64,000 bases of DNA from Algoriphagus sanaruensis (GTDB taxonomy: Bacteria; Bacteroidota; Bacteroidia; Cytophagales; Cyclobacteriaceae), in assembly GCF_001593605.1 (NCBI RefSeq), contig NZ_CP012836.1, forward strand, positions 620,001-684,000, written 5' to 3'. Each line of letters starts with the position of its first letter. Within the stretch, counting starts at the first letter, position 1. Under the pieces are notes generated by a model that was not told where the DNA came from, searched no databases, and saw only the letters and a program-made list of their open reading frames with translations. Below, piece by piece: positions 44,010 to 54,133 of the stretch. The translations under genes and the position numbers were made by a program.

Positions 44010-45254
44010 ATGAAGAAATTTCTTTTAAATCCAGCCTTACTTGCGGTCATTGTTTCGCTTTTCGTTATTGCCTGTGACGCTCCTCCATCGGATGAACAGC
44101 TTCAATCTTCCTTACAGAAAGACGTTACTTATCTCGCCGCCGATGACTTGGGAGGTCGTGCTATTGGTACCGAAGGAGAACAAAAAGCAGCTGAATACTT
44201 GGCTAAGCAATTTGAATCTCTTGGACTTCAAGCCAAAGGAACAGAAGGATTTTTCCAGCCATTTACAGTTTCAAAACCAACCAATCCTCATGAGGAAGCA
44301 GTAATTGGAACGGATGGTGATGGGGTCACTGGAAGAAATGTGGTTGGTTTTTTGGATAAGCAATCAGACAAGACAATAGTCATTGGAGCTCACTTTGACC
44401 ACTTGGGAATGGGTGGACAGGGCTCGCTGCATCGAGGAGATTCTGCCATCCACAATGGAGCCGATGACAATGCCTCAGGAACGGCGGCCTTATTGGCATT
44501 GGCAACTATTTTAAAGCATGAAAAATTGCAAAGCAATGTCTTGTTTATCGCCTTTTCGGGCGAAGAAAATGGGCTTTGGGGTTCCAATTATTTTGTCAAA
44601 AACCCGACCATCGATCTTTCTACCGTTAACTACATGATCAATATGGATATGGTCGGAAGACTTAAGGAAGATAATTCCTTGGCGATAAATGGAGTTGGTA
44701 CTAGTCCCAGTTTCGCTCCAGTGTTTGATCAAATTAATTCCGATAGCTTAAAATTGGTCACTTCCGAATCTGGCGTGGGTCCATCTGACCACACCTCTTT
44801 TTATCTTCAGGATTTGCCAGTGCTTCATTTTTTTACCGGTCAACATGAAGACTACCATAAGCCAAGTGATGATTCTGATAAAATCAATTATGAGGGTTTA
44901 GTCAAAGTGGTTCGATATATTTCTCGCTTGGTTACGGCTCTTGATGCTGAACCGAAATTGGCATTTACCAAGACCAAGGATTCCAGTGATTCTCCAAGAT
45001 TCACTGTTTCCATGGGGGTTGTTCCTGATTACATGTTTGATGGCAAAGGCATGCGAGTGGATGGCGTGTCAGAAGGAAAACCCGCTCAGGCTGCAGGTAT
45101 TCTCAAAGGAGATGTTGTCGTACAGTTGGGAGATTCTACAGTTTATGATATGATGAGTTATATGAGAGCCTTAAGTGTTTTTCAAAAGGGAGACTCAACC
45201 CAAGTGGTCATTGACCGAAATGGGCAAAAAGTAGAAGCTGTAGTCAAATTCTAA
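44010..45254 (+). CDS. M28-family zinc aminopeptidase lipoprotein with PDZ domain
   Basis: A 414-aa protein with lipobox VIAC (Cys22). The M28 core holds two-zinc ligands: H128 in GAHFDHLG, D152 in GADDNASG, E185/E186 in FSGEENGLWGS, D213 in NMDMVGR, and His in GPSDHTSFY. A C-terminal PDZ domain (about 330-412, VDGVSEGKPAQAAGILKGD) may recognise substrate tails. It would cleave N-terminal residues from peptides in the periplasm or at the outer membrane. The open frame extends upstream to 43869, overlapping the divergent gene, but the -7 box at 43983 excludes this. RlmF follows 10 bp downstream. Confidence 0.91.
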   Translation: MKKFLLNPALLAVIVSLFVIACDAPPSDEQLQSSLQKDVTYLAADDLGGRAIGTEGEQKAAEYLAKQFESLGLQAKGTEGFFQPFTVSKPTNPHEEAVIGTDGDGVTGRNVVGFLDKQSDKTIVIGAHFDHLGMGGQGSLHRGDSAIHNGADDNASGTAALLALATILKHEKLQSNVLFIAFSGEENGLWGSNYFVKNPTIDLSTVNYMINMDMVGRLKEDNSLAINGVGTSPSFAPVFDQINSDSLKLVTSESGVGPSDHTSFYLQDLPVLHFFTGQHEDYHKPSDDSDKINYEGLVKVVRYISRLVTALDAEPKLAFTKTKDSSDSPRFTVSMGVVPDYMFDGKGMRVDGVSEGKPAQAAGILKGDVVVQLGDSTVYDMMSYMRALSVFQKGDSTQVVIDRNGQKVEAVVKF

Positions 45255-45264
45255 TTCCCCAAGT

Positions 45265-46212
45265 TTGTCATCACGTTCAGTGTCAAAACACCATCCTAGA
45301 AATCTCCACCAAGGCAGTTATGATTTGGTGGAGATTTCAAAGTCCTCTCCAGAACTACTGGAGTTTATTTTTACCAATTCCTATGGGACGCTGACTCTTG
45401 ATTTTTCTGACCCTAAGGCGGTTTTGGCACTGAATCGAGCGCTACTGAAACACGATTACCAAGTTGATTTTTGGGAGATACCAGCTGGGTTTTTGTGTCC
45501 CCCCATTCCTGGTCGAGCGGATTACATTCATTTCTTGGCAGATTTGTTAATCCAAAGCAACAATCAAAAGCGACCAAATTGGGAAAAAATTAGGGTGCTT
45601 GATTTAGGGACTGGAGCAAATCTCATTTATCCCATCCTAGGTGTTTCGAGCTATGGATGGTCTTTTGTAGGGTCTGAGATAAATCTTATTGCCTTTGAAT
45701 CAGCTCGGAAAATCAAGGAAAATAACCCTTCTCTACAATCCAAGGTGGAACTCAGACTCCAAGGCAATTCGTCAAAGTTATTTGACTCTGTAATCCTTCC
45801 CGATGAATTCTTTGACTTGACTTGCTGCAATCCTCCTTTTTTTGAATCTGAAGAAGAAGCCCTCCATGCAAACAGACGCAAAGTTCAAAACCTAAAAGGA
45901 ATCAAGGCTGTAAAGCCTTCACACAATTTTGGTGGTCAGGCCAATGAGCTTTGGACAGAGGGTGGTGAGTTACAGTTTTTGAGAAAAATGGCTCTTGAAA
46001 GCACTCAATTCAAACATCAAGTATTTTGGTTTACGAGTTTGGTTTCTAAGTCTGCCCATGTCAATCCCATGAGATCCTACTTGGAAAAATTGGGAGTTAC
46101 TACTCAGAAAGTCATCGAGATGGAGCAGGGAAATAAAAAATCTCGATTTATAGCTTGGACATTTTTGAATGCAAAGCAGCAAGAGTCTTGGAAAAGTTAC
46201 CGCTGGAAATAA
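45265..46212 (+). CDS. rlmF: 23S rRNA (adenine-1618-N6)-methyltransferase
   Basis: A 315-aa protein matching RlmF: HHPRNLHQGSYDL near the start, PAGFLCPPIPGRADYIHFLA in the middle, the SAM-binding VLDLGTGANLIYPI, and the catalytic NPPF motif in LTCCNPPFFES. It methylates A1618 of 23S rRNA. There is no ATG start: TTG at 45265 gives the full frame, and GTG at 45280 is the alternative, both keeping the conserved HPRN. It lies 10 bp after the M28 peptidase gene, so it may be co-transcribed. A hairpin terminator follows. Confidence 0.9.
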   Translation: MSSRSVSKHHPRNLHQGSYDLVEISKSSPELLEFIFTNSYGTLTLDFSDPKAVLALNRALLKHDYQVDFWEIPAGFLCPPIPGRADYIHFLADLLIQSNNQKRPNWEKIRVLDLGTGANLIYPILGVSSYGWSFVGSEINLIAFESARKIKENNPSLQSKVELRLQGNSSKLFDSVILPDEFFDLTCCNPPFFESEEEALHANRRKVQNLKGIKAVKPSHNFGGQANELWTEGGELQFLRKMALESTQFKHQVFWFTSLVSKSAHVNPMRSYLEKLGVTTQKVIEMEQGNKKSRFIAWTFLNAKQQESWKSYRWK

Positions 46213-46214
46213 AA

Positions 46215-46246
46215 AACTCTCCGGAATATTTAAATTCTGGAGAGTT
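46215..46246. terminator. Terminator between rlmF and the OsmC-family gene
   Basis: AACTCTCC (46215-46222) pairs with GGAGAGTT (46239-46246); the interior also pairs (GGAAT with ATTCT, one G-U), giving about 13 bp. It is suitable for both convergent genes. Confidence 0.8.
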
Positions 46247-46271
46247 AAGCGGGGTTTTCCCACTTTTATGA

Positions 46272-46685
46272 TTAGGCGTTTAGCGTGTATTCCACACTGA
46301 TTTCCATATTTAAGGCTCTGGAGATCGGGCAGTTTTTTTCAGCGTCTTGGACTAGTTCAGCAAACTGTTCTTCTGAAATTCCTTCCACTTGGGCTTTCAA
46401 TACCAAGTGGGATTTTTTCAAAGTTCCTTCCTCGAAAGTAATCTGAGAAGTGACATCCAATTCTTGTGGAGGGAAATTGGCTCCGCTGAGGTTAAAGCTG
46501 AGTTTCATCGCAAAACAACCTGCATGAGCAGCCGCGATAAGTTCTTCCGGATTGGTTCCTACCCCGTCTTCAAATCGGGTATTAAAGGAGTATTGGGTTT
46601 GGTTAAGTACGGTGCTGTCTGTGGTCAAATGTCCTTTGCCTTCTTTGCCGCTTCCGTTCCATACGGCTGTTGCTTTTCTGATCAT
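46272..46685 (-). CDS. OsmC-type thiol peroxidase
   Basis: A 137-aa protein of normal length for the OsmC/OhrA group, closer to OsmC. The two redox cysteines are C57 in AHAGCFAM and C119 in EKNCPIS; R37 and E48 complete the active site. It reduces organic hydroperoxides in the cytoplasm using dihydrolipoyl or similar thiols. It is a single gene between rlmF and the repeat-flanked GxxExxY unit. Confidence 0.92.
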
Positions 46686-46769
46686 GGATTAAAGAGTTTT
46701 TATGGTGAAAAGATACTTCATAAAGGAAAATTGAGCGCTTAAAGTTTCAAGGTTTCTTGTTTCCCACAG

Positions 46770-46868
46770 ATTTCCACGAATAAAATCACGGATAGACACA
46801 GATCACTATTAACCGATCAGTGAAATTCTGTGGGACAAATCAGTGAGAATCTGTTAGAACTATTTTTT
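46770..46868. repeat. Left copy of ~100-bp direct repeat flanking the GxxExxY gene
   Basis: 99 nt, about 94% identical to 47262-47361 in the same orientation (five substitutions and one 1-nt indel, roughly). It contains two imperfect copies of an ATCAGTGAxAxTCTGT unit with a 23-nt period (46816, 46839) and complementary CACAGAT/TCACT segments that can fold. Confidence 0.85.
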
Positions 46869-46879
46869 AACTTAAGATC

Positions 46880-47260
46880 ATGCACGAAAATGAAATTACC
46901 TTTTTAATCCGTGGTGCAATTTTTAAAGTCTACAATACCCTCGGTCCGGGACTTTTGGAATCTAGCTACGAAGCTGCTTTGGGATATGAATTAGTCAAAT
47001 CTGGGCTGATAGTTGAGCGTCAGGTTGGTCTACCCATGGTTTATGAAGATCTGAAATTAGATGTTGGATATCGATTAGACTTACTGGTAGAGAAAAAAGT
47101 AATTGTAGAGATCAAATCGATCGAACTTTTGCAAAATATCCACCACCTGCAACTAATGACCTATCTGAGGTTGGCTAAGTTGAAAGTAGGTTTATTGGTT
47201 AATTTCAATACCGATAACCTGCCAAAAAATATTATCCGAAAGATTAATGGATATCTATAA
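46880..47260 (+). CDS. GxxExxY-family protein
   Basis: A 126-aa protein carrying the name-giving motif at G24, E27 and Y30 in LGPGLLESSYEAAL. The middle part, YRLDLLVEKKVIVEIKS, has D67, E77 and K79 in the spacing of a PD-(D/E)xK nuclease core, so nuclease activity is a reasonable inference; no function is established as far as I know. The family is short, highly conserved and scattered across very different bacteria. Here the gene sits alone between two near-identical direct repeats, with 11 bp on the left and 1 bp on the right, as if gene and repeats form one unit. Confidence 0.9.
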   Translation: MHENEITFLIRGAIFKVYNTLGPGLLESSYEAALGYELVKSGLIVERQVGLPMVYEDLKLDVGYRLDLLVEKKVIVEIKSIELLQNIHHLQLMTYLRLAKLKVGLLVNFNTDNLPKNIIRKINGYL

Positions 47261-47261
47261 A

Positions 47262-47361
47262 ATTTCCACGGATAAAAATCACGGATAGACACAGATCACC
47301 ATTAACCGATCAGTGAAAATCTGTGGGACAAATCAGTGAGAATCTGTGGGAACTATTTTTT
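47262..47361. repeat. Right copy of ~100-bp direct repeat flanking the GxxExxY gene
   Basis: 100 nt matching 46770-46868. The 23-nt tandem units are at 47309 and 47332. It begins 1 bp after the GxxExxY stop codon, and its other end covers the last codons and stop of the convergent glycosyltransferase gene. Confidence 0.85.
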
Positions 47362-48477
47362 CGCTAGTTTTTCAAAAACTTCTAAATACCGCTTCGTCAC
47401 GAAATCCCAATTGTATTTTTGAGTCAATCCAGCTTGGGCCGTTTGTCGGAGATGATCTAGAGTATCAGGGTCTTTTTCCGCGTTTTCTATAGTTCCTTTT
47501 ACTGATTCAGTCTTTTTCTCGAAATACCATCCATGCTTTCCGTTTTGAAGCATTTCTTGATTAAAAGGAGTGTCAAGAGCTAGAATCGCACAACCATAAC
47601 CCAAGGCCTTGAGCATTGCAGGATTCGTGCCGCCAAATTCGTGACCGTGGAAATAGGCATAGCAATGTGAATACAAAGCTGCCAATTCATTAGGATCGGT
47701 GACATAGCCTGTAAAAAGTAATCTGGGATCTGATAGCGACTTTAATCGATTGGCCCAAGGATCGGAAAAAGGGACGTCTCCTACCACCACAAGCTTTTTT
47801 TGAGAAGATGAAGTCAAAAAACCTTCAATAATCAGATCGGCATTGTTGTCTGGGACCAACCTTCCAACGATCAAATAATATCCTCTGCTTTCTAAATTCC
47901 ATCGTTCGATGTGCTTAGGATCGACAGTTTCTCTAGGATTTGCACCATAAGCTATGACTTCCGAATCTTTCCCAAAATGCTCCAAATAAACCCTGCGCAT
48001 TTCCTCGGAGTCATTGATGATTTGGTCGTAAAACTTCGTGGCCATTCGAGAAGCCCAATAAAAATACTTGGATCCTATTCCTTTCCATTTCGGCCTTAGC
48101 CATTCCAAACCATCCACATTGATGGCAGTTGGTTTCCCAAATATTCGTGCAATTAATCCGAATGGACCATTTCCGCTGTTCACAACAAAAATCACGTCCA
48201 CATCCGAAAAACAGGCATGGACCATGGATATCAAAGTATGTGAGAGTTGGGTGAAACTTTTGGATTCGATCGCAGGAGTGTAGATGCATTCAATTCCATT
48301 GACATACCGTGGCCGAGTATCAAATAGGGCTCTGTGATTGTATACACGGACATGCACGCCTTTTTCCACGAGCCTTTCACCAAGTTCCTTGATTAGCGTG
48401 TCATACCCTCCATAGACATAGGGATAACCCTTGGCTCCCATGATGGCGATTTTTAGTTCCTTTTCAGATTTCGCCAT
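47353..48477 (-). CDS. Glycosyltransferase, DUF1972/GT4 (rhamnosyltransferase-like)
   Basis: A 374-aa GT-B enzyme. The N-terminal half matches DUF1972: IAIMGAKGYPYVYGGYDTL, NGIECIYTPAIESKS, VVNSGNGPFGL and NVDGLEWLRPKW. The C-terminal half is a GT1/GT4 nucleotide-sugar domain with YLIVGRLVPDNNADL, LLFTGYVTDPNELAALY and YFHGHEFGGTNPAMLKA. Homologues add rhamnose or similar sugars to a lipid-linked precursor during capsule or O-antigen synthesis in the cytoplasm. It is the last gene of the cluster. Its last codons (AKK and stop) lie inside the right GxxExxY repeat, and it overlaps the preceding gene by 25 bp. Confidence 0.9.
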   Translation of the reverse strand: MAKSEKELKIAIMGAKGYPYVYGGYDTLIKELGERLVEKGVHVRVYNHRALFDTRPRYVNGIECIYTPAIESKSFTQLSHTLISMVHACFSDVDVIFVVNSGNGPFGLIARIFGKPTAINVDGLEWLRPKWKGIGSKYFYWASRMATKFYDQIINDSEEMRRVYLEHFGKDSEVIAYGANPRETVDPKHIERWNLESRGYYLIVGRLVPDNNADLIIEGFLTSSSQKKLVVVGDVPFSDPWANRLKSLSDPRLLFTGYVTDPNELAALYSHCYAYFHGHEFGGTNPAMLKALGYGCAILALDTPFNQEMLQNGKHGWYFEKKTESVKGTIENAEKDPDTLDHLRQTAQAGLTQKYNWDFVTKRYLEVFEKLAKK

Positions 48478-49616
48478 AAATGAGCTGTGATTTTTTGTTC
48501 AAAGGATTCCAAGCTATACACTTGCAGTACTCGTTCTTGTCCATTTTTTCCCATTTGTAGCGAAAGCTCATGGTTCGAAAGAAGCGTTTCTAAGGCCCTA
48601 ACCCCTTCCTCAATATCTCCCACTGGAATAAGGATTCCCGTTTCCCCGTTCACTACCATTTCGGAAGCTCCTCCTGATTTTGTAGCAATTACAGGTTTGC
48701 TGCTAGCCATCGCCTCCAAAACAACGGTTGGAAAAGAATCGGGAAGGATTGAGGGCAACATGAAAATATCCAATGATGCCATAACCTCGGGAATATCGTC
48801 CCGAAATCCCAAATAGCTAACATTTCTTTCCAGTCCTTTTTGCTGAATTTGAGTTTTAATTTCTTCCAAAATAGGTTCATATCCTGGAAATGGATCACCC
48901 ACTAAGACAAAGTGAGTATCGGCATAAGATTTTAAAATTTCCTCTGCAATCTGGAGGAAGAATAGCTGACCTTTTCCGGGATTTATCCTTCCTACCATTC
49001 CGATCAGAAATCTGGAAGAAGGAATTCCGAGTTCTTGCTTTAGGGAAGGTTTCGCTTCAAAAAATGCCCGATATGGAATTCCATTGTGGATGACTTCAAG
49101 CCTTGATTTTTTTAGAAGGGGTTGCCAATGATCCGCCACTGCTTGAGAAACTGCGATGGGATTTGGGGTGGACTGTTCCAGCAAAGATGCCAACCCTTTG
49201 ACCAAGGGTAAAGGCCCTGGCAAGATTTCATGAATATGCCAAATATGGGGAAGCTTATTTCGTTTGGCCCAAATGGCCCCAATGACCACCGCAAGTGTAT
49301 TGGAATACACCAATTCAAAGGAGAACCGATGGTGCAATTCTGCCAGAAAGCGATACGCTTTTAGGTTCTTTTGGATTCTGTTGATTAAGCCAAGCGGACT
49401 GACATACTTGCGTCTTAAAATGCCCAGATTATGGACAAAAAAAGGAATGTTCAGTTTGGTGAGTTCTTCTTCAATCGGTCCATGATTGGTCAATAAAACT
49501 ACTGGAGAAAGACCCTGTTTTTGATAAAATTGGATGACCTGAAGGATGATTTTTCCCGAACCATAGCCCTCTGAGGAACTTTGAAGAAAAAGAATATGTC
49601 GGGGTTTATTCGCCAT
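48453..49616 (-). CDS. GT4-family glycosyltransferase
   Basis: A 387-aa GT-B glycosyltransferase. It has an N-terminal acceptor domain (HILFLQSSSEGYGSGKIILQ) and a C-terminal donor domain with IGMVGRINPGKGQLFFL, VSYLGFRDDIPEVMASLDIF, and the E-x7-E motif in FPTVVLEAMASSKPVIATKS. The start is the ATG at 49616; the upstream TTG at 49634 lies within a -7 box. It transfers a sugar from an activated donor during polysaccharide assembly; the sugar is not predictable. The following DUF1972 glycosyltransferase gene overlaps its end. Confidence 0.9.
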   Translation of the reverse strand: MANKPRHILFLQSSSEGYGSGKIILQVIQFYQKQGLSPVVLLTNHGPIEEELTKLNIPFFVHNLGILRRKYVSPLGLINRIQKNLKAYRFLAELHHRFSFELVYSNTLAVVIGAIWAKRNKLPHIWHIHEILPGPLPLVKGLASLLEQSTPNPIAVSQAVADHWQPLLKKSRLEVIHNGIPYRAFFEAKPSLKQELGIPSSRFLIGMVGRINPGKGQLFFLQIAEEILKSYADTHFVLVGDPFPGYEPILEEIKTQIQQKGLERNVSYLGFRDDIPEVMASLDIFMLPSILPDSFPTVVLEAMASSKPVIATKSGGASEMVVNGETGILIPVGDIEEGVRALETLLSNHELSLQMGKNGQERVLQVYSLESFEQKITAHLWRNLKRN

Positions 49617-49631
49617 AGGTTTTGCTGAGTA

Positions 49632-49639
49632 CAAAGGTA
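49632..49639 (-). promoter_or_regulatory. -7 promoter box inside the polysaccharide cluster
   Basis: On the minus strand TACCTTTG matches TAnnTTTG, 15 bp before the ATG at 49616. It suggests the last two glycosyltransferase genes can be transcribed separately from the rest of the cluster. Confidence 0.5.
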
Positions 49640-49670
49640 AGTCTAAGCTTTCCCAATTCTTTCTGGATTA

Positions 49671-50564
49671 TCAGGTTTGTTGGAAATACAAACCTAAAAT
49701 TCCGGATTTACCAAAACCCAGAGAAAAAACCTCCAATGTCCAAGCGATCGGCAACGTGAATCCAATCAAAAGCAGCAAGCCTAGCGTCTTTCGGCGCTTC
49801 AACCTAAGAATCAGATTTTCACGATATCCCAACCTAGCTAATAGGGCTTGAAGCATCCCCAAAACACCCAAATGAACAGAATAGCTTCTTGTTCCAACTA
49901 CCGAAAAGCCCAATTTTCCCATTTGCTCGGATAATTCTGGTTTCGTCCAGTGAGTCAAATGCTTGGGGATATCCCAATGCATCCAATGCTTTCCGGCGAT
50001 TTTTGCTTGCCAAGAATCTGCTCGAGGCACTTCAATATACACGATCCCCTGAGGTTTGAGATTGGCAGATAGTAATTCTCCCAATAGGTGAACTGGATTT
50101 GGCAAATGTTCCAAAACATGATTGAGAGAGATTAGATCAGCGAGATTTTCTCCGATTTTTCCGGATTCATAATAGGAGCTGATCACGTCTACTCTGTACT
50201 TTTCTCTCGCAAAATCGGCCCTCGCTTGTTCGGTTTCTATGCCGATTCCATTCCAGTTTAATTTCTTTGCAATGGCCAAAAACTGACCTTTTCCAGATCC
50301 AAAATCAAGGAGATGCTGAGCTTTTGGATTCAGTTTACGAGCCTTATGAAGAATCTTCTTGGCCTCCGAAAAAATGATCTTTTCGAATATCGAAGTTCTA
50401 TTATCCACAATCGCATAGACTTCATCTCGATAAAGAGCTTTGTCATCGATAGGTTCAGGGATAAACGTCCATTGAACCCCACAGCTTTGACACCCGATTA
50501 AAGTTAAGGGTTCAGGGGAATTTTTGGGGGGGGTAGAACAAACCGGACAGGTGATTTGTCTCAT
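49671..50564 (-). CDS. SAM-dependent methyltransferase with N-terminal zinc ribbon
   Basis: A 297-aa protein. A four-Cys zinc ribbon (C6, C9, C25, C28) precedes a class I methyltransferase fold: LLDFGSGKGQFLAIAKKL is the SAM site and LISLNHVLEHLPNPVHLL the post-motif II region. A hydrophobic C-terminus (LGLLLLIGFTLPIAWTLEV) could associate with the membrane. Zinc-ribbon methyltransferases of this layout occur in sugar and O-antigen clusters, where they methylate sugars or lipid-linked glycans. It lies 3 bp from the upstream glycosyltransferase gene and is translationally close-coupled. Confidence 0.87.
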   Translation of the reverse strand: MRQITCPVCSTPPKNSPEPLTLIGCQSCGVQWTFIPEPIDDKALYRDEVYAIVDNRTSIFEKIIFSEAKKILHKARKLNPKAQHLLDFGSGKGQFLAIAKKLNWNGIGIETEQARADFAREKYRVDVISSYYESGKIGENLADLISLNHVLEHLPNPVHLLGELLSANLKPQGIVYIEVPRADSWQAKIAGKHWMHWDIPKHLTHWTKPELSEQMGKLGFSVVGTRSYSVHLGVLGMLQALLARLGYRENLILRLKRRKTLGLLLLIGFTLPIAWTLEVFSLGFGKSGILGLYFQQT

Positions 50565-50567
50565 GGA

Positions 50568-51692
50568 TCAAAGAGTCGGATTCAAAATAATCCGGTGGAA
50601 GGCTTCAATAAATTTTTCGGCGGAAAAATCCTTAGCCCGCTCTTTTCCATGAGAAATCTGCTGGCTTCTAAGGTTTCCATCACGATCCAAAAGTATCAAT
50701 TTTTCAGTCAAATCTTCTCCATTTCCGGTCTGGAAAGGAAGTCCTGCCCCGCCGGCCACCTCCAGTAAAGCAAGTTGATCCGAATGAATGACCGGAACAC
50801 CAAAGCCCATGGATTCTAAAATAGGGATTCCAAATCCCTCATTTTGGGAAGGAAAAACATAGGCAAAAGCACCTTCATAAAGAGCCTTCACCTCTCCATC
50901 GCTGAGATATCCCGGCAGAATGATTTGTTCCTGAAGCCCAAGCGACTCAATTAATTTTTCTACGACAGGGAAATCATTCATTTGCTTGCTCTGACCGGGT
51001 CCGCCCGCCAAGACTAATTTTTGGATGGTGGGTTGTTGCTTGAGGTATTGAGCAAAAGAGTTGACTAGGAGTGGTAGGTTTTTCCGCTTGTCAAAGGTCC
51101 CGATATGCACAAAATATCCCTTTTTTGGGAGGTGTTTTTTTACCAAAAACTGAGGATCAGAAGCTGCTTTCAGGCCTTTTGGAGCTTGATAAATAACTGA
51201 AATCGGCCAATCGTTACCGAGATATTCAAGTAGGGAATTTTTGGAATAATTGGTTGTGGTAATGATTTGGGTATCTTCTTTCAATCCTTTTCGAATCAGG
51301 TTGAGGAAATAGGTCCTCCACCAGCGAGGGTAGTTTTCGGGCATTTGCCAGAAAAACGCATCATGGATTACTGTCAATCTTCGGCAGGGAAGTGATGCTG
51401 CAGGCGATACAAAATCCGGACAGATCAACACATCTGGTTTGTACTTTTTGACCAGATCAGGAAGTTGAAATTCTTTCCATCTGAAATAGTCCAAATGATA
51501 GTTGAGGCGCTGGATTTTTGATTTTGCACCTTGGTAGGTCTTATCGGCAGCCTGCACTTCAGGCTCATGCGTAAAAATCCACTCCACTTCAGGATGGGGA
51601 TATTTCCGAGCCGCCTTGGCAAGTTCCACCATATAGGTTTTGATACCCGTAGTGGCGACGTTGAGGTGCTGAAGATCGAGGAGGACTTTCAA
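50568..51692 (-). CDS. GT4-family glycosyltransferase
   Basis: A 374-aa GT-B enzyme. N-terminal LLDLQHLNVATTGIKTYMVE, then VIHDAFFWQMPENYPRWW; donor domain with YFVHIGTFDKRKNLPLLV, ILPGYLSDGEVKALYEGAF and the E-x7-E motif in PSQNEGFGIPILESMGFGV. The set resembles mannosyltransferase-like enzymes of O-antigen loci. No in-frame ATG exists at the N-terminus; initiation is likely at TTG 51692, which gives the usual family beginning. It is followed within 3 bp by a methyltransferase gene. There is a 162-bp gap upstream of it. Confidence 0.88.
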   Translation of the reverse strand: MKVLLDLQHLNVATTGIKTYMVELAKAARKYPHPEVEWIFTHEPEVQAADKTYQGAKSKIQRLNYHLDYFRWKEFQLPDLVKKYKPDVLICPDFVSPAASLPCRRLTVIHDAFFWQMPENYPRWWRTYFLNLIRKGLKEDTQIITTTNYSKNSLLEYLGNDWPISVIYQAPKGLKAASDPQFLVKKHLPKKGYFVHIGTFDKRKNLPLLVNSFAQYLKQQPTIQKLVLAGGPGQSKQMNDFPVVEKLIESLGLQEQIILPGYLSDGEVKALYEGAFAYVFPSQNEGFGIPILESMGFGVPVIHSDQLALLEVAGGAGLPFQTGNGEDLTEKLILLDRDGNLRSQQISHGKERAKDFSAEKFIEAFHRIILNPTL

Positions 51693-51854
51693 AGCAATGG
51701 TCTTTAATGCCCGATAAATGAGAATCCGCTCAGGGGTTAAAATAGATTTTTGAACGTGAATTCAAGTTAGGGATAAACTGAGCAGATAAACGAAAAAAAA
51801 GTAAAAATGAGCATGTTTTCAAACCCGATGCCATTGGGCAAAAATAGGTTCTTC

Positions 51855-52742
51855 CTATTGTCCAACCTCCTTCAGGCAAATTATCCATTGATTTACCTGA
51901 AATACATTTTGAATCAGCCGGTTGATTTTTTTGGTGAGGGGCATTTGATATCGAATTAATCTGCTGATTTTTTCTCCCAAATTATGGGTGTAATGATTAT
52001 TCACGGTCAACCCTTCCTCTTCACAAAGGCTTCTCAATCTCTTTTTTGGAAAAATAAACGTATGCTCCAAGCCGTCAATCACATCTGGAATTCGCAATTG
52101 AAGCAAATTGGCCCAACGGTGCCAAGTGTATAGTCTGCTTGAAATGTCCGGTGTGCCGATTACCAAAAATCCTCCGGGTTTCAGGATTCGTTTCATTTCT
52201 TGGATATCCCCTCGTGGATCCAAGACGTGCTCAATCACATGAGAAATGTGGATAAAGTCAAAAAATTCATCCGGATACTGAGCACTTTCCAGATCTCCTT
52301 GGTGGGTCTTGACAGAGAAATGCTCCTGAACAAACTCCAAAGCACCTTGGTCGTATTCGGTGGCATACAATTCACAACTCAATTGGTTGGCATAAGCTAG
52401 TCCCAGGCCCAGTCCACAACCAACATCCAGAAATTTACTTCCACCTTGAAGGTTTTTAAGGTACCGGGATTCTTGCTTGATCTGGGCTTCTGTTAAATTT
52501 TTGATCCGCTCAAAATGCCCCAGGATGATTTCTTTGTAAGAAACTGCCTCGTAGTGGTCTTTTTCATAATAGGACTGATAGTACTCCTTGAGCTCTTCTG
52601 CATCTGCCATAGGATTGGCAAAGACTACTCCACAGGCATCGCATTTTACTCGTGAGATGTGTGGCCCTTTTCTTCGGGTGTCAATCGCAAAGCCGGTGAG
52701 ATTAGTCGAGTTGCAAAGAGGACAAGAGCGGTGTAAAATCAT
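51855..52742 (-). CDS. SAM-dependent methyltransferase with N-terminal zinc ribbon
   Basis: A 295-aa protein built like the other zinc-ribbon methyltransferase in this cluster but clearly diverged. Its ribbon cysteines are C7, C10, C34 and C37 (VKCDACGVVFANP). The methyltransferase core includes FLDVGCGLGLGLAYANQ and FIHISHVIEHVLDPRGDIQ, followed by LKPGGFLVIGTPD. It overlaps the start of the polymerase-like gene by 4 bp, so they are co-translated. It probably methylates a sugar of the exported glycan; the target atom is unknown. Confidence 0.88.
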   Translation of the reverse strand: MILHRSCPLCNSTNLTGFAIDTRRKGPHISRVKCDACGVVFANPMADAEELKEYYQSYYEKDHYEAVSYKEIILGHFERIKNLTEAQIKQESRYLKNLQGGSKFLDVGCGLGLGLAYANQLSCELYATEYDQGALEFVQEHFSVKTHQGDLESAQYPDEFFDFIHISHVIEHVLDPRGDIQEMKRILKPGGFLVIGTPDISSRLYTWHRWANLLQLRIPDVIDGLEHTFIFPKKRLRSLCEEEGLTVNNHYTHNLGEKISRLIRYQMPLTKKINRLIQNVFQVNQWIICLKEVGQ

Positions 52743-54133
52743 GAAATCAACTTGTTTTTAAGCTCGGAATATTCCCGGAGACTAAACCCAATCATCCACC
52801 AAGTCAGCCAAGATACATACGTGTAGATTTCTACATTGGCAGTGAAGAGTGGCAAAAGTAGCCCCACTTTCACCACAGCTCCAGTAAATGCGACACGGGC
52901 TATGGCCGTATTAGTCGAGGATCGAAATACTCGAATGGAATCCCGGACTCCGGTAGCCAAAGTTAAACTATATAAAAGCAACCCCAGCCAACCAAGCTGA
53001 ACTCCGTAGATTAAAAATTGATTTTCACCTCCTACTCGGAGCTCGTCCTCAACGCTTCCAAAATTCCCGCTCATCGCCAATCCGATTCCAAGCGGATTGC
53101 TAATCATGGAGTCTAAAGCCAAGAGCCACTCGACCACGTGACCCACGCTCGAGCTGTTTTCAAACGTCAAGGTATCTAGGACAAAAAAGTAAAAATCCTC
53201 AGAAGCAAAAAAGACCACATAGATTCCGAACAAGAGCAAGGCTAGAAATCCCGCTCCAATCAATTTGTACAAGCGAAATACCAAGGCCACAAAAAAGATC
53301 ATGATAAAGAAAGCTCCAAAAGCCGCACGCGAGGCGGAGAAAACTAAGCAACCTAGTGAGACCAACATCACTAAAAGGTATTTCCAGTTTTCTTCTCGTT
53401 TGGTAGTCAAAAACCAAATCAAACCTGCGGCAAATCCCATCAAGACCGAGCTTGCCATTTCCAAGGGATCAGAGAAAAAGGAAGCTAATCGCTTGGTGAC
53501 TGCCTGAGTTTCAAAGGTCCAGGTTAAGCCGAAATTTCCAGTAGGGTCAATGTTATTGATTACTTGGTTGTATAAGGCATAGCCCGTGAACTGTTGCAAA
53601 TGGGCCTGAAGGAGGTAGTTTTCAATCAGATTTATCCCAAAAGCAGCAAACATGACCCCAAAAATGAGGACGAACAGTCTTCGAATTTCTGCTTGATCCC
53701 ACTGCGTATTTCTGCCTAGAAAGTATGCTAAGCCAGGCATGAGCATGCTTTTATAATACAATGCTTTATTCAAAAATGAGGCATTTCCCAAGGGTAATAG
53801 CAAATACAGAAAGGCCAAGCTCAATAAACCCAACATCATCCAATCTGTGGCAAGCAGTCGCAAGGGATAGCAGAACAGGTCCTTTCGATATACTATGAAA
53901 ATTCCTACCGACAACAAGATGATCAGCTCTTTGAGAATTTGGAATACACTCAGGAGCTCTGGGGATCGAGTGGCTAAGAAAATCACACTCAAGCTGGTAA
54001 TATATACAGGAAGAAAAGCCGCAAGAAAGTAGATGAAGTAGCTCCATTTACCTTCAACCGTCATTTTTTGAAGGGTCCAGAGCATTGCTCCAAATACCCC
54101 TGCAGCTATTAGGATAAAAAATACTATAGCCAT
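52739..54133 (-). CDS. O-antigen polymerase/ligase-like membrane protein (Wzy type)
   Basis: A 464-aa integral membrane protein with about ten to twelve transmembrane helices and a larger extracytoplasmic loop (about 330-370), as in the Wzy/WaaL superfamily. The segment SASRAAFGAFFIMIFFVAL holds the conserved S-R-x-A/G pattern of O-antigen ligase-like proteins. The family is poorly conserved in sequence, so the call rests on topology and its place between flippase and transferase genes. It would polymerise repeat units at the periplasmic face. It overlaps the neighbouring genes by 4 and 10 bp. Confidence 0.8.
   Translation of the reverse strand: MAIVFFILIAAGVFGAMLWTLQKMTVEGKWSYFIYFLAAFLPVYITSLSVIFLATRSPELLSVFQILKELIILLSVGIFIVYRKDLFCYPLRLLATDWMMLGLLSLAFLYLLLPLGNASFLNKALYYKSMLMPGLAYFLGRNTQWDQAEIRRLFVLIFGVMFAAFGINLIENYLLQAHLQQFTGYALYNQVINNIDPTGNFGLTWTFETQAVTKRLASFFSDPLEMASSVLMGFAAGLIWFLTTKREENWKYLLVMLVSLGCLVFSASRAAFGAFFIMIFFVALVFRLYKLIGAGFLALLLFGIYVVFFASEDFYFFVLDTLTFENSSSVGHVVEWLLALDSMISNPLGIGLAMSGNFGSVEDELRVGGENQFLIYGVQLGWLGLLLYSLTLATGVRDSIRVFRSSTNTAIARVAFTGAVVKVGLLLPLFTANVEIYTYVSWLTWWMIGFSLREYSELKNKLIS

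Follow-up and report, generated by a model that had tools for sequence, protein, structure and literature searches.

A GxxExxY-family gene for a predicted PD-(D/E)xK nuclease very probably forms one inherited unit with its private flanking word arrays

INTRODUCTION

In Algoriphagus sanaruensis, a small gene of the GxxExxY family stands between two nearly identical repeats of about 100 nt. Do the gene and the repeats belong together, and what might the gene product do at the repeats? We addressed these questions in a stretch of 64,000 nt, here called the window, from a genome of 3.88 Mb in a single contig. A first-pass annotation, made from the letters of the window, had proposed that the gene and its repeats could be a self-contained mobile unit.

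GxxExxY genes are common in genomes of this phylum yet scarcely named in the open-access literature. Two papers name the family, once each: PMC8934634, where a GxxExxY gene is reported beside a reverse transcriptase, and PMC12085832. Among the open-access literature matches listed, a scope with most subscription journals outside it, we found no description of GxxExxY genes with such arrays.

RESULTS

Two word arrays border the gene

The locus has the following features.

46272..46685, minus strand: left neighbor, OsmC-family gene (TIGR03562, 168.5 bits); anchor of the orthologous site
46760..46868, no strand: upstream hairpin-like array of words, CAC class (R1 model, 84.0 bits at 46760-46860)
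46816..46855, no strand: inverted half of the upstream array, with ATCAGTG, TTCTGTG, ATCAGTG, and ATCTGTT (read from the sequence and alignment)
46880..47260, plus strand: GxxExxY gene, 126 codons (126 aa); active-site residues E27, D67, E77, K79, and Q91
47262..47361, no strand: downstream array copy, 94% identical to the upstream array (R1 model, 69.0 bits at 47251-47353)
47353..48477, minus strand: right neighbor, glycosyltransferase gene (PF00534); anchor of the orthologous site

The gene of 126 codons at 46880-47260 (+) was exactly as the first-pass annotation had given it, and so were the two repeats of about 100 nt: the copies at 46770-46868 and 47262-47361 have the same orientation and 94% identity, the upstream one ending 11 bp before the ATG and the downstream one starting 1 bp past the stop codon. 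We found that the upstream array truly starts about 10 nt before 46770, at TTTCCCACAGAT (46760). Each array has four words of the CRCNGAT type, spaced 10, 12 to 13, and 10 bp apart, and then an inverted set. In the upstream array the words are CCCACAGAT, CACGAAT, CACGGAT, and CACAGAT, with the inverted half next to them; the downstream array is without the outermost first word of the upstream array. The downstream repeat overlaps at its end (47353-47361) with the minus-strand glycosyltransferase gene, of which it covers the final codons and the TAG stop codon.

The upstream and downstream flanks of the gene aligned locally with a score of 86. This match is beyond chance, since a score of 18 is reached by just one of the 277 control pairs taken from farther out in the genus set described below. 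We searched the window with the R1 repeat model, which was made from 23 hand-picked arrays that include both window copies and thus matches those copies by construction, and arrays were found only at these two places. The gene is antisense to both neighbors, with a complete array on either side of it rather than a single array around it. Two complete arrays in direct orientation are a variant form; in the wider samples, a single gene between inverted arms is usual. As the first-pass annotation had said of the vicinity, we found no tRNA, here anywhere in the window. Farther to the right (48453-54133), a run of minus-strand ORFs looks by eye like genes for glycosyltransferases and methyltransferases together with one for a membrane protein; it may be a surface polysaccharide cluster.

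The gene product is a predicted minimal nuclease

We scanned three proteins of the locus with Pfam and NCBIfam profiles. The window protein matched PF13366 (PDDEXK_3) at 133.5 bits (cutoff, 22) and TIGR04256 at 133.6 bits (cutoff, 35), and it is thus a member of the GxxExxY family. PF13366 was the sole Pfam family to match the gene product at an E value of 0.001, and no transposase match was found in it at that limit. E27, D67, E77, K79, Q91, and Y95 are invariant in 78 of 78 aligned GxxExxY sequences, which bears out the conserved D67/E77/K79 pattern that had been noted before. Within the genus, Y95 varies (it is present in 135 of 144 genes), and the catalytic residues are intact in 142 of 144.

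AlphaFold modeled the window protein with a pLDDT of 95.6 and a pTM of 0.89. A sequence search of the PDB with the window protein found no relative at an E value of 1. The top Foldseek matches in the PDB were nucleases, namely, SSO0001 (4ic1), which we take to be a Cas4, and lambda exonuclease, with modest scores and a best E value of 1.0e-3; the 4ic1 chains had TM scores of 0.44 to 0.54 against the model, normalized by query length. Cas4 profiles matched weakly (E value, 0.004), and Q91-x3-Y95 resembles the QxxxY motif of RecB and Cas4. The conserved acidic/lysine active site and the predicted alpha-beta core are those of the PD-(D/E)xK superfamily. We infer that the window protein is a minimal PD-(D/E)xK nuclease of the Cas4/lambda exonuclease type, with predicted nuclease activity. 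It shares with these enzymes the catalytic residues, the QxxxY-like motif, and its best fold matches. In contrast to them, it has just 126 aa, and a CRISPR context was not seen at the window locus.

Matching flanks recur across the family

We aligned the 250 bp before each gene locally with the 250 bp after it, and pairs lying farther out at the same locus served as the control. The score limit was 18, set at the 99th percentile of far-control scores in the named-genome set. That set comprises the best 80 of 577 relatives listed, leans toward the query, and was used at 78 loci (one was short and one had Ns); 54 of the 78 reached the limit, with 51 inverted and 16 direct matches, against 2 of 200 control pairs. 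The phylum sample took 27 of 30 best-per-genome loci (L078, L081, and L089 were left out for a cut contig or a stop codon) and lost one further locus to Ns; here 17 of 26 GxxExxY loci had matching flanks, and none of 52 controls did. In the genus set (145 genes from 142 loci, fewer than all found, with the G034 copy not included), the limit was reached in 98/142, 81 inverted and 53 direct, with 1/277 in the control, leaving 44 of the 142 genus genes without matching flanks at a score of 18. The association of gene and repeats, first drawn from a single locus, is therefore borne out, as matching flanks recur across genomes and phyla.

Part of the flank signal comes from shared words, since flanks taken from two different GxxExxY loci match in some cases too (109/936 in the named-genome set and 57/650 in the phylum sample). 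In both sets examined for spacing, five-base matches recur at lags of 9 to 10, 12, and 21 to 23 nt, and the genus set has a further lag of 8 nt; the excess over the control is as high as about sevenfold. At site S05 (L317, L334, L340, L342, L347, L349, L354, and L032), the active site is intact, and the flanks, scored for seven of the eight loci, are unmatched. Three Hymenobacter loci (L114, L111, and L126), apparently at one site, have arms of different words; in L114, the two arms agree by eye along 51 nt (score, 51).

PF13366 genes were found in 194 of 392 sampled genomes of the phylum and also occur in other phyla. A one-protein query, by which distant relatives would be missed, found GxxExxY relatives in 8 of 72,556 plasmid records; the same kind of query, with the same reach, found 0 of 50,697 in a phage collection. 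We opened six of the eight plasmid-borne relatives, and the words were clear in two, on a Bacteroides plasmid (L363; flank score of 24 against at most 11 in the far controls) and on a Fusobacteria plasmid (34 against at most 13). The Gemmatirosa relative scored 60 to 61, but its surroundings also scored 23 to 27. On the Bernardetia plasmid (20 against up to 18) and the Sphingomonas plasmid (L365; 21 against up to 16), words were seen by eye without a clear excess, and the Treponema relative showed no excess (12 against 12). The gene lies between fabD and fabG in L365 and between radA and a gene for an FAD-dependent protein in L363, all co-directional in each case.

Each gene has flanks of its own

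We found that own flank pairs match in 93 of 128 genus genes, compared with 10 of 374 pairs between paralogs of the same genome. In the window's genome (G000), own scores were 86, 47, and 53, and cross scores were 8 to 14. Because the flanks are private to the gene in this way, we rejected a chance adjacency of generic genome-wide repeats. The two paralogs in G000, L004 (G000:C1:1862455-1865805) and L005 (G000:C1:3154148-3157492), have word classes of their own, CGCAGAG-like and CACGGAG-like, respectively; L005 lies by eye among several array copies, between sugar-nucleotide genes.

At least three CRCRGAK words were present in 38/77 and 20/26 GxxExxY loci, compared with 7/138 and 4/52 controls; the motif was picked after viewing the same flanks, and the count also leaves out one short locus and two from the window's genus. 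An unguided 6-mer count of the same GxxExxY flanks ranked CGCAGA and CACAGA first. The words are oriented: in the first set the upstream flank had 78 on the plus strand versus 24 on the minus strand, and the downstream flank had 95 minus versus 29 plus, while the second set had 55 plus versus 7 minus upstream and 45 minus versus 4 plus downstream. Position 2 of the word (A or G) switches as a class and covaries between arms, and position 4 is free on both arms. As read from the letters, this combination is expected of binding sites more than of a strict RNA stem. Word class changed 3 times on the protein tree (shuffled, 7.0), and linked inheritance alone could account for this tracking. Our search for residues that separate the CAC from the CGC word class gave nothing convincing. 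A candidate promoter motif between arm and gene, TAnnTTTR, was found in 27 of 144 genus cases (28.8 expected) and in 20 of 79 in the wider set (8.9 expected).

Matches to R1 occurred in at least 61 of 72 genus genomes, with both strands of the palindrome counted. The first-pass annotation had allowed that the repeats might occur throughout genomes without relation to GxxExxY genes, and this was borne out only in part. Array matches stand at seven loci (L003, L028, L030, L031, L033, L035, and L036) without a GxxExxY gene in the stretch examined. However, arrays are commoner in genomes with the gene clade (a median of 16 matches in 21 genomes versus 3 in the 51 without it; P = 6e-7, with the gene's own arrays included and the kinship of the genomes ignored), and each gene's flanks are private; thus, the link between gene and arrays stands.

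Comparison with IVP and Y1 genes

Genes for the four-helix 23S_rRNA_IVP protein in the phylum had matching flanks at 19 of 35 loci and 0 of 70 controls (the set is 35 of 36 loci; L099, which has stops, was left out). At loci L097, L098, and L100 to L102 in G000 and at phylum loci L213 to L242, IVP genes often lie between inverted arrays, whose words (e.g., CGAGTTA, AAAGTTG, and CTAAGATGCTGAG) differ from the GxxExxY words. Three or more CRCRGAK words were present at 1 of the 35 IVP loci. Since IVP genes have no nuclease fold and share the layout, a gene-between-arrays architecture does not need this enzyme.

Y1_Tnp proteins are encoded in 65 of 72 genus genomes, with 5 matches in the window's genome. 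We took 20 of the 65 genomes, examined a single Y1 locus in each, and found matching flanks in 12 of 20 (control, 4/40), which means that the flank method also detects REPtron-like loci. The Y1 flanks have GTTCC..GGAAC-like and other palindromes; no locus among the 20 had three CRCRGAK words, and R1 gave just two nonsignificant matches at Y1 loci (E values, 0.17 and 0.89). The GxxExxY family is thus set apart from Y1 REPtron-like loci among the loci examined. Five Y1_Tnp loci with GTTCC..GGAAC-like palindromes (L378, L382, L383, L387, and L388) are probably ordinary REPtrons.

The OsmC-glycosyltransferase site in relatives

We compared the site in 30 loci listed of 54 genomes with an OsmC match. 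The glycosyltransferase gene adjoined in 20 of these, 11 with the GxxExxY gene and 9 without it. All 11 gene-bearing loci listed have at least two arrays (the second array of L061 is very weak, at 15.3 bits), so that none keeps the gene without repeats, an arrangement that the first-pass annotation had named as evidence against its proposal. It had also predicted that a relative without the gene would retain a single repeat. L038 (G037), the closest by OsmC (87%) among the loci listed, is gene-less and keeps exactly one clear array (68.9 bits). Of the other eight gene-less loci, six have no array at the junction and two show weak array traces, at 17.8 and 13.1 bits. In G004, the order is repeat-gene-repeat-gene-repeat, i.e., gene and repeat are duplicated. 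In L046 (G020), the 3' side of the gene shows by eye two repeats and, between them, an apparent second copy of part of the glycosyltransferase 3' end, which looks like a stretch duplicated together with an array.

The upstream array of the window scores 86 against the downstream array of G005, equal to its score against its own partner. The upstream array of G005 belongs to the CGC class, as does the solo array of L038, and CAC-class arrays stand upstream in several more distant relatives at the window site. Because of the score shared with G005 and the CGC class in G005 and L038, the near-identity of the pair is best read as recent homogenization, and the two window repeats look recently homogenized. 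The upstream array of the window may have replaced a CGC-class array, or the arrays of G005 and G037 may have changed later.

Inheritance, inversion, and homogenization

Of 131 genes whose site is shared, 120 had their nearest relative on the protein tree at that same site and 11 had it elsewhere; the count covers 131 of 144 tips and leaves out 13 genes at single-member sites, which favors a vertical reading. Frequent jumping, as the proposal of a mobile unit might suggest, is not supported by these numbers. The median dN/dS was 0.07 and the maximum 0.55 over 61 ortholog pairs with a dS of 0.05 to 1.2 and no internal stop; 10 of 145 genus GxxExxY genes have an internal stop. Since the unit is mostly inherited at fixed sites and is under strong purifying selection, it is not an active jumper, and this selection points to some benefit, rather than jumping, as the reason why the nuclease is retained.

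Five sites have family members in both orientations with respect to shared flanks. Site S02 was also flagged but is left out of this number, because its signal comes from a paralog next to a similar glycosyltransferase. In the two closest pairs (S06 and S14), the whole of arm, gene, and arm is flipped in place, and the breakpoints fall at the arms or inside them. The opposite directions of distant genes at S09 may reflect independent arrivals and not an inversion. We also searched two close pairs for a clean insertion site with a target-site duplication and found none; there was no sufficiently precise empty site. When L019 (G028) and L020 (G001) are compared, one has a second downstream array, and about 100 bp of other sequence separates it from the first.

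We compared array similarity within loci and across orthologs, using loci at sites where some pair reached 18 (98 inverted, 54 direct). Direct pairs scored 43.3 within a locus versus 25.6 across orthologs (n = 54; P = 1.9e-5; 8 of 9 sites). The difference for inverted arms was small, 20.3 versus 18.9 (n = 98; P = 0.02; 7 of 14 sites), and an earlier test of inverted arms with flipped orthologs mixed in had shown no effect (59/121; P = 0.62). Homogenization is clear for direct pairs only. We rejected the idea that inverted arms generally evolve in concert, as the effect is weak with flips removed.

DISCUSSION

The gene and its repeats very probably constitute one inherited unit. As an explanation of the whole, we favor a nuclease with a private array, organized much like a REPtron, to which we give about an even chance. 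According to this model, a GxxExxY nuclease would recognize its own phased words, possibly extruded as a hairpin; recognition of the words by the protein is the somewhat likelier part. The nuclease would then nick or resect its own array, and the arrays would recombine or anneal. Annealing of direct copies would leave a single-repeat empty site or tandem units, annealing of inverted arms would invert the unit, and copying between arrays would yield a homogenized pair. Such products are seen among the relatives: a one-array empty site, tandem units, in-place inversion, and homogenized direct pairs. That nuclease action at the arrays drives these rearrangements is conceivable, at a probability that we place just short of even.

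The arrays might instead be passively linked to the gene, being neutral or of use to the host (as terminators or slippage-prone words), while the gene has an unrelated job and the nuclease does not act on them. The vertical inheritance and strong purifying selection agree with such a view, as do the array matches found at a distance from the gene or in genomes that lack the gene clade, and template-switch correction of imperfect palindromes can homogenize arms without a dedicated enzyme. We nevertheless consider passive linkage rather unlikely, as flanks are private to each gene (93/128 versus 10/374), the type of word goes with the gene family outside the genus too, and the far-flank control is near zero. 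An element acting at the RNA level, like the intervening sequences of 23S rRNA, is unlikely too. Here the arms would pair in the transcript with the ORF in the loop, the protein would bind or mature the RNA, and RNase III would trim it. IVP genes do share the arms-around-ORF layout (19/35 versus 0/70), and GxxExxY genes between co-directional neighbors tend to follow the transcription of these (++ 46 versus -- 11 and 41 versus 15, or 87 versus 26 over both sets, with crude ORF calls and genus loci that are not independent). The window repeats fold better than shuffles on the plus strand (z scores, -2.5 and -3.1) but not on the minus strand (-0.6 and -1.1). Over the whole proposed stem, 86% of cells are paired, with covariation above all 500 shuffles, mainly at word position 2, whereas position 4 is unpaired in 4/23, 13/23, 7/23, and 15/22 cells and the linkers appear unpaired by eye. 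Moreover, the window gene is antisense to both neighbors and lies between complete arrays rather than within one, and we found no Rfam match in 45000-49000.

Two further readings involve movement. In a true homing element, the nuclease would cut solo arrays and repair would copy gene and repeat in. The single array at the empty site L038, the tandem arrangement in G004, and the 11 of 131 genes nearest to a relative at another site are what homing would leave, yet inheritance is mostly vertical, and the solo array of L038 is of the other (CGC) class; we regard homing as quite improbable. With inheritance mostly vertical (120/131), repeat propagation is a conjecture. Least probable of all is that the arrays are REP-like palindromes mobilized by a Y1 (HUH) transposase encoded elsewhere, with GxxExxY as a passenger. 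Y1_Tnp genes are indeed available in most genus genomes, the window's included, but those examined often have palindromes of their own (12/20), none has three CRCRGAK words, and R1 is nonsignificant at their loci. We thus rejected mobilization of the arrays by RAYTs, as the Y1 genes examined carry other repeats.

The favored model, a nuclease with its private array, has its closest parallel in REPtrons. These are RAYT (TnpA_REP) transposases with REP/REPIN palindromes (PMC8266576 and PMC3116915; see also PMC3733652). The likeness lies in three things: palindromic repeats that belong to the gene, solo copies dispersed elsewhere, and a repeat type that follows the enzyme clade. The GxxExxY unit has private palindromic flanks and copies dispersed away from the gene. 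In contrast, its enzyme is a predicted PD-(D/E)xK nuclease and not an HUH Y1 transposase, the defining feature of a REPtron, and its arrays are about 100 nt long with about eight phased words, where REPtrons have palindromes of 20 to 40 bp. The 23S rRNA intervening sequence, as a section of PMC4990558 describes it, has a small ORF for the S23/IVP four-helix protein between complementary arms, and that section cites a proposal that the ORF served mobility. The GxxExxY unit is likewise a small ORF bordered by complementary arms; unlike the intervening sequence, it lies outside rRNA among protein-coding neighbors, its protein has another fold, its words differ, the pairing of word position 4 is often lost, and the window repeats are direct. 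Homing endonuclease units resemble it in having a nuclease gene and an empty site (L038) that keeps a recognition-like sequence, but cutting by GxxExxY proteins is a prediction from their sequences, and a spread bias was not observed.

We tentatively extend this, with somewhat more doubt than confidence, to the family: GxxExxY proteins may be repeat-keeping nucleases across phyla, each reshaping its own array, with word specificity that changes with the protein. If true, GxxExxY, RAYT/REP, and four-helix IVP would be three unrelated protein types with one private-array strategy, and the REPtron idea would extend beyond HUH transposases. A common kind of intergenic hairpin repeat would be tied to specific proteins, and the private cognate repeat would offer the first testable substrate for the GxxExxY family.
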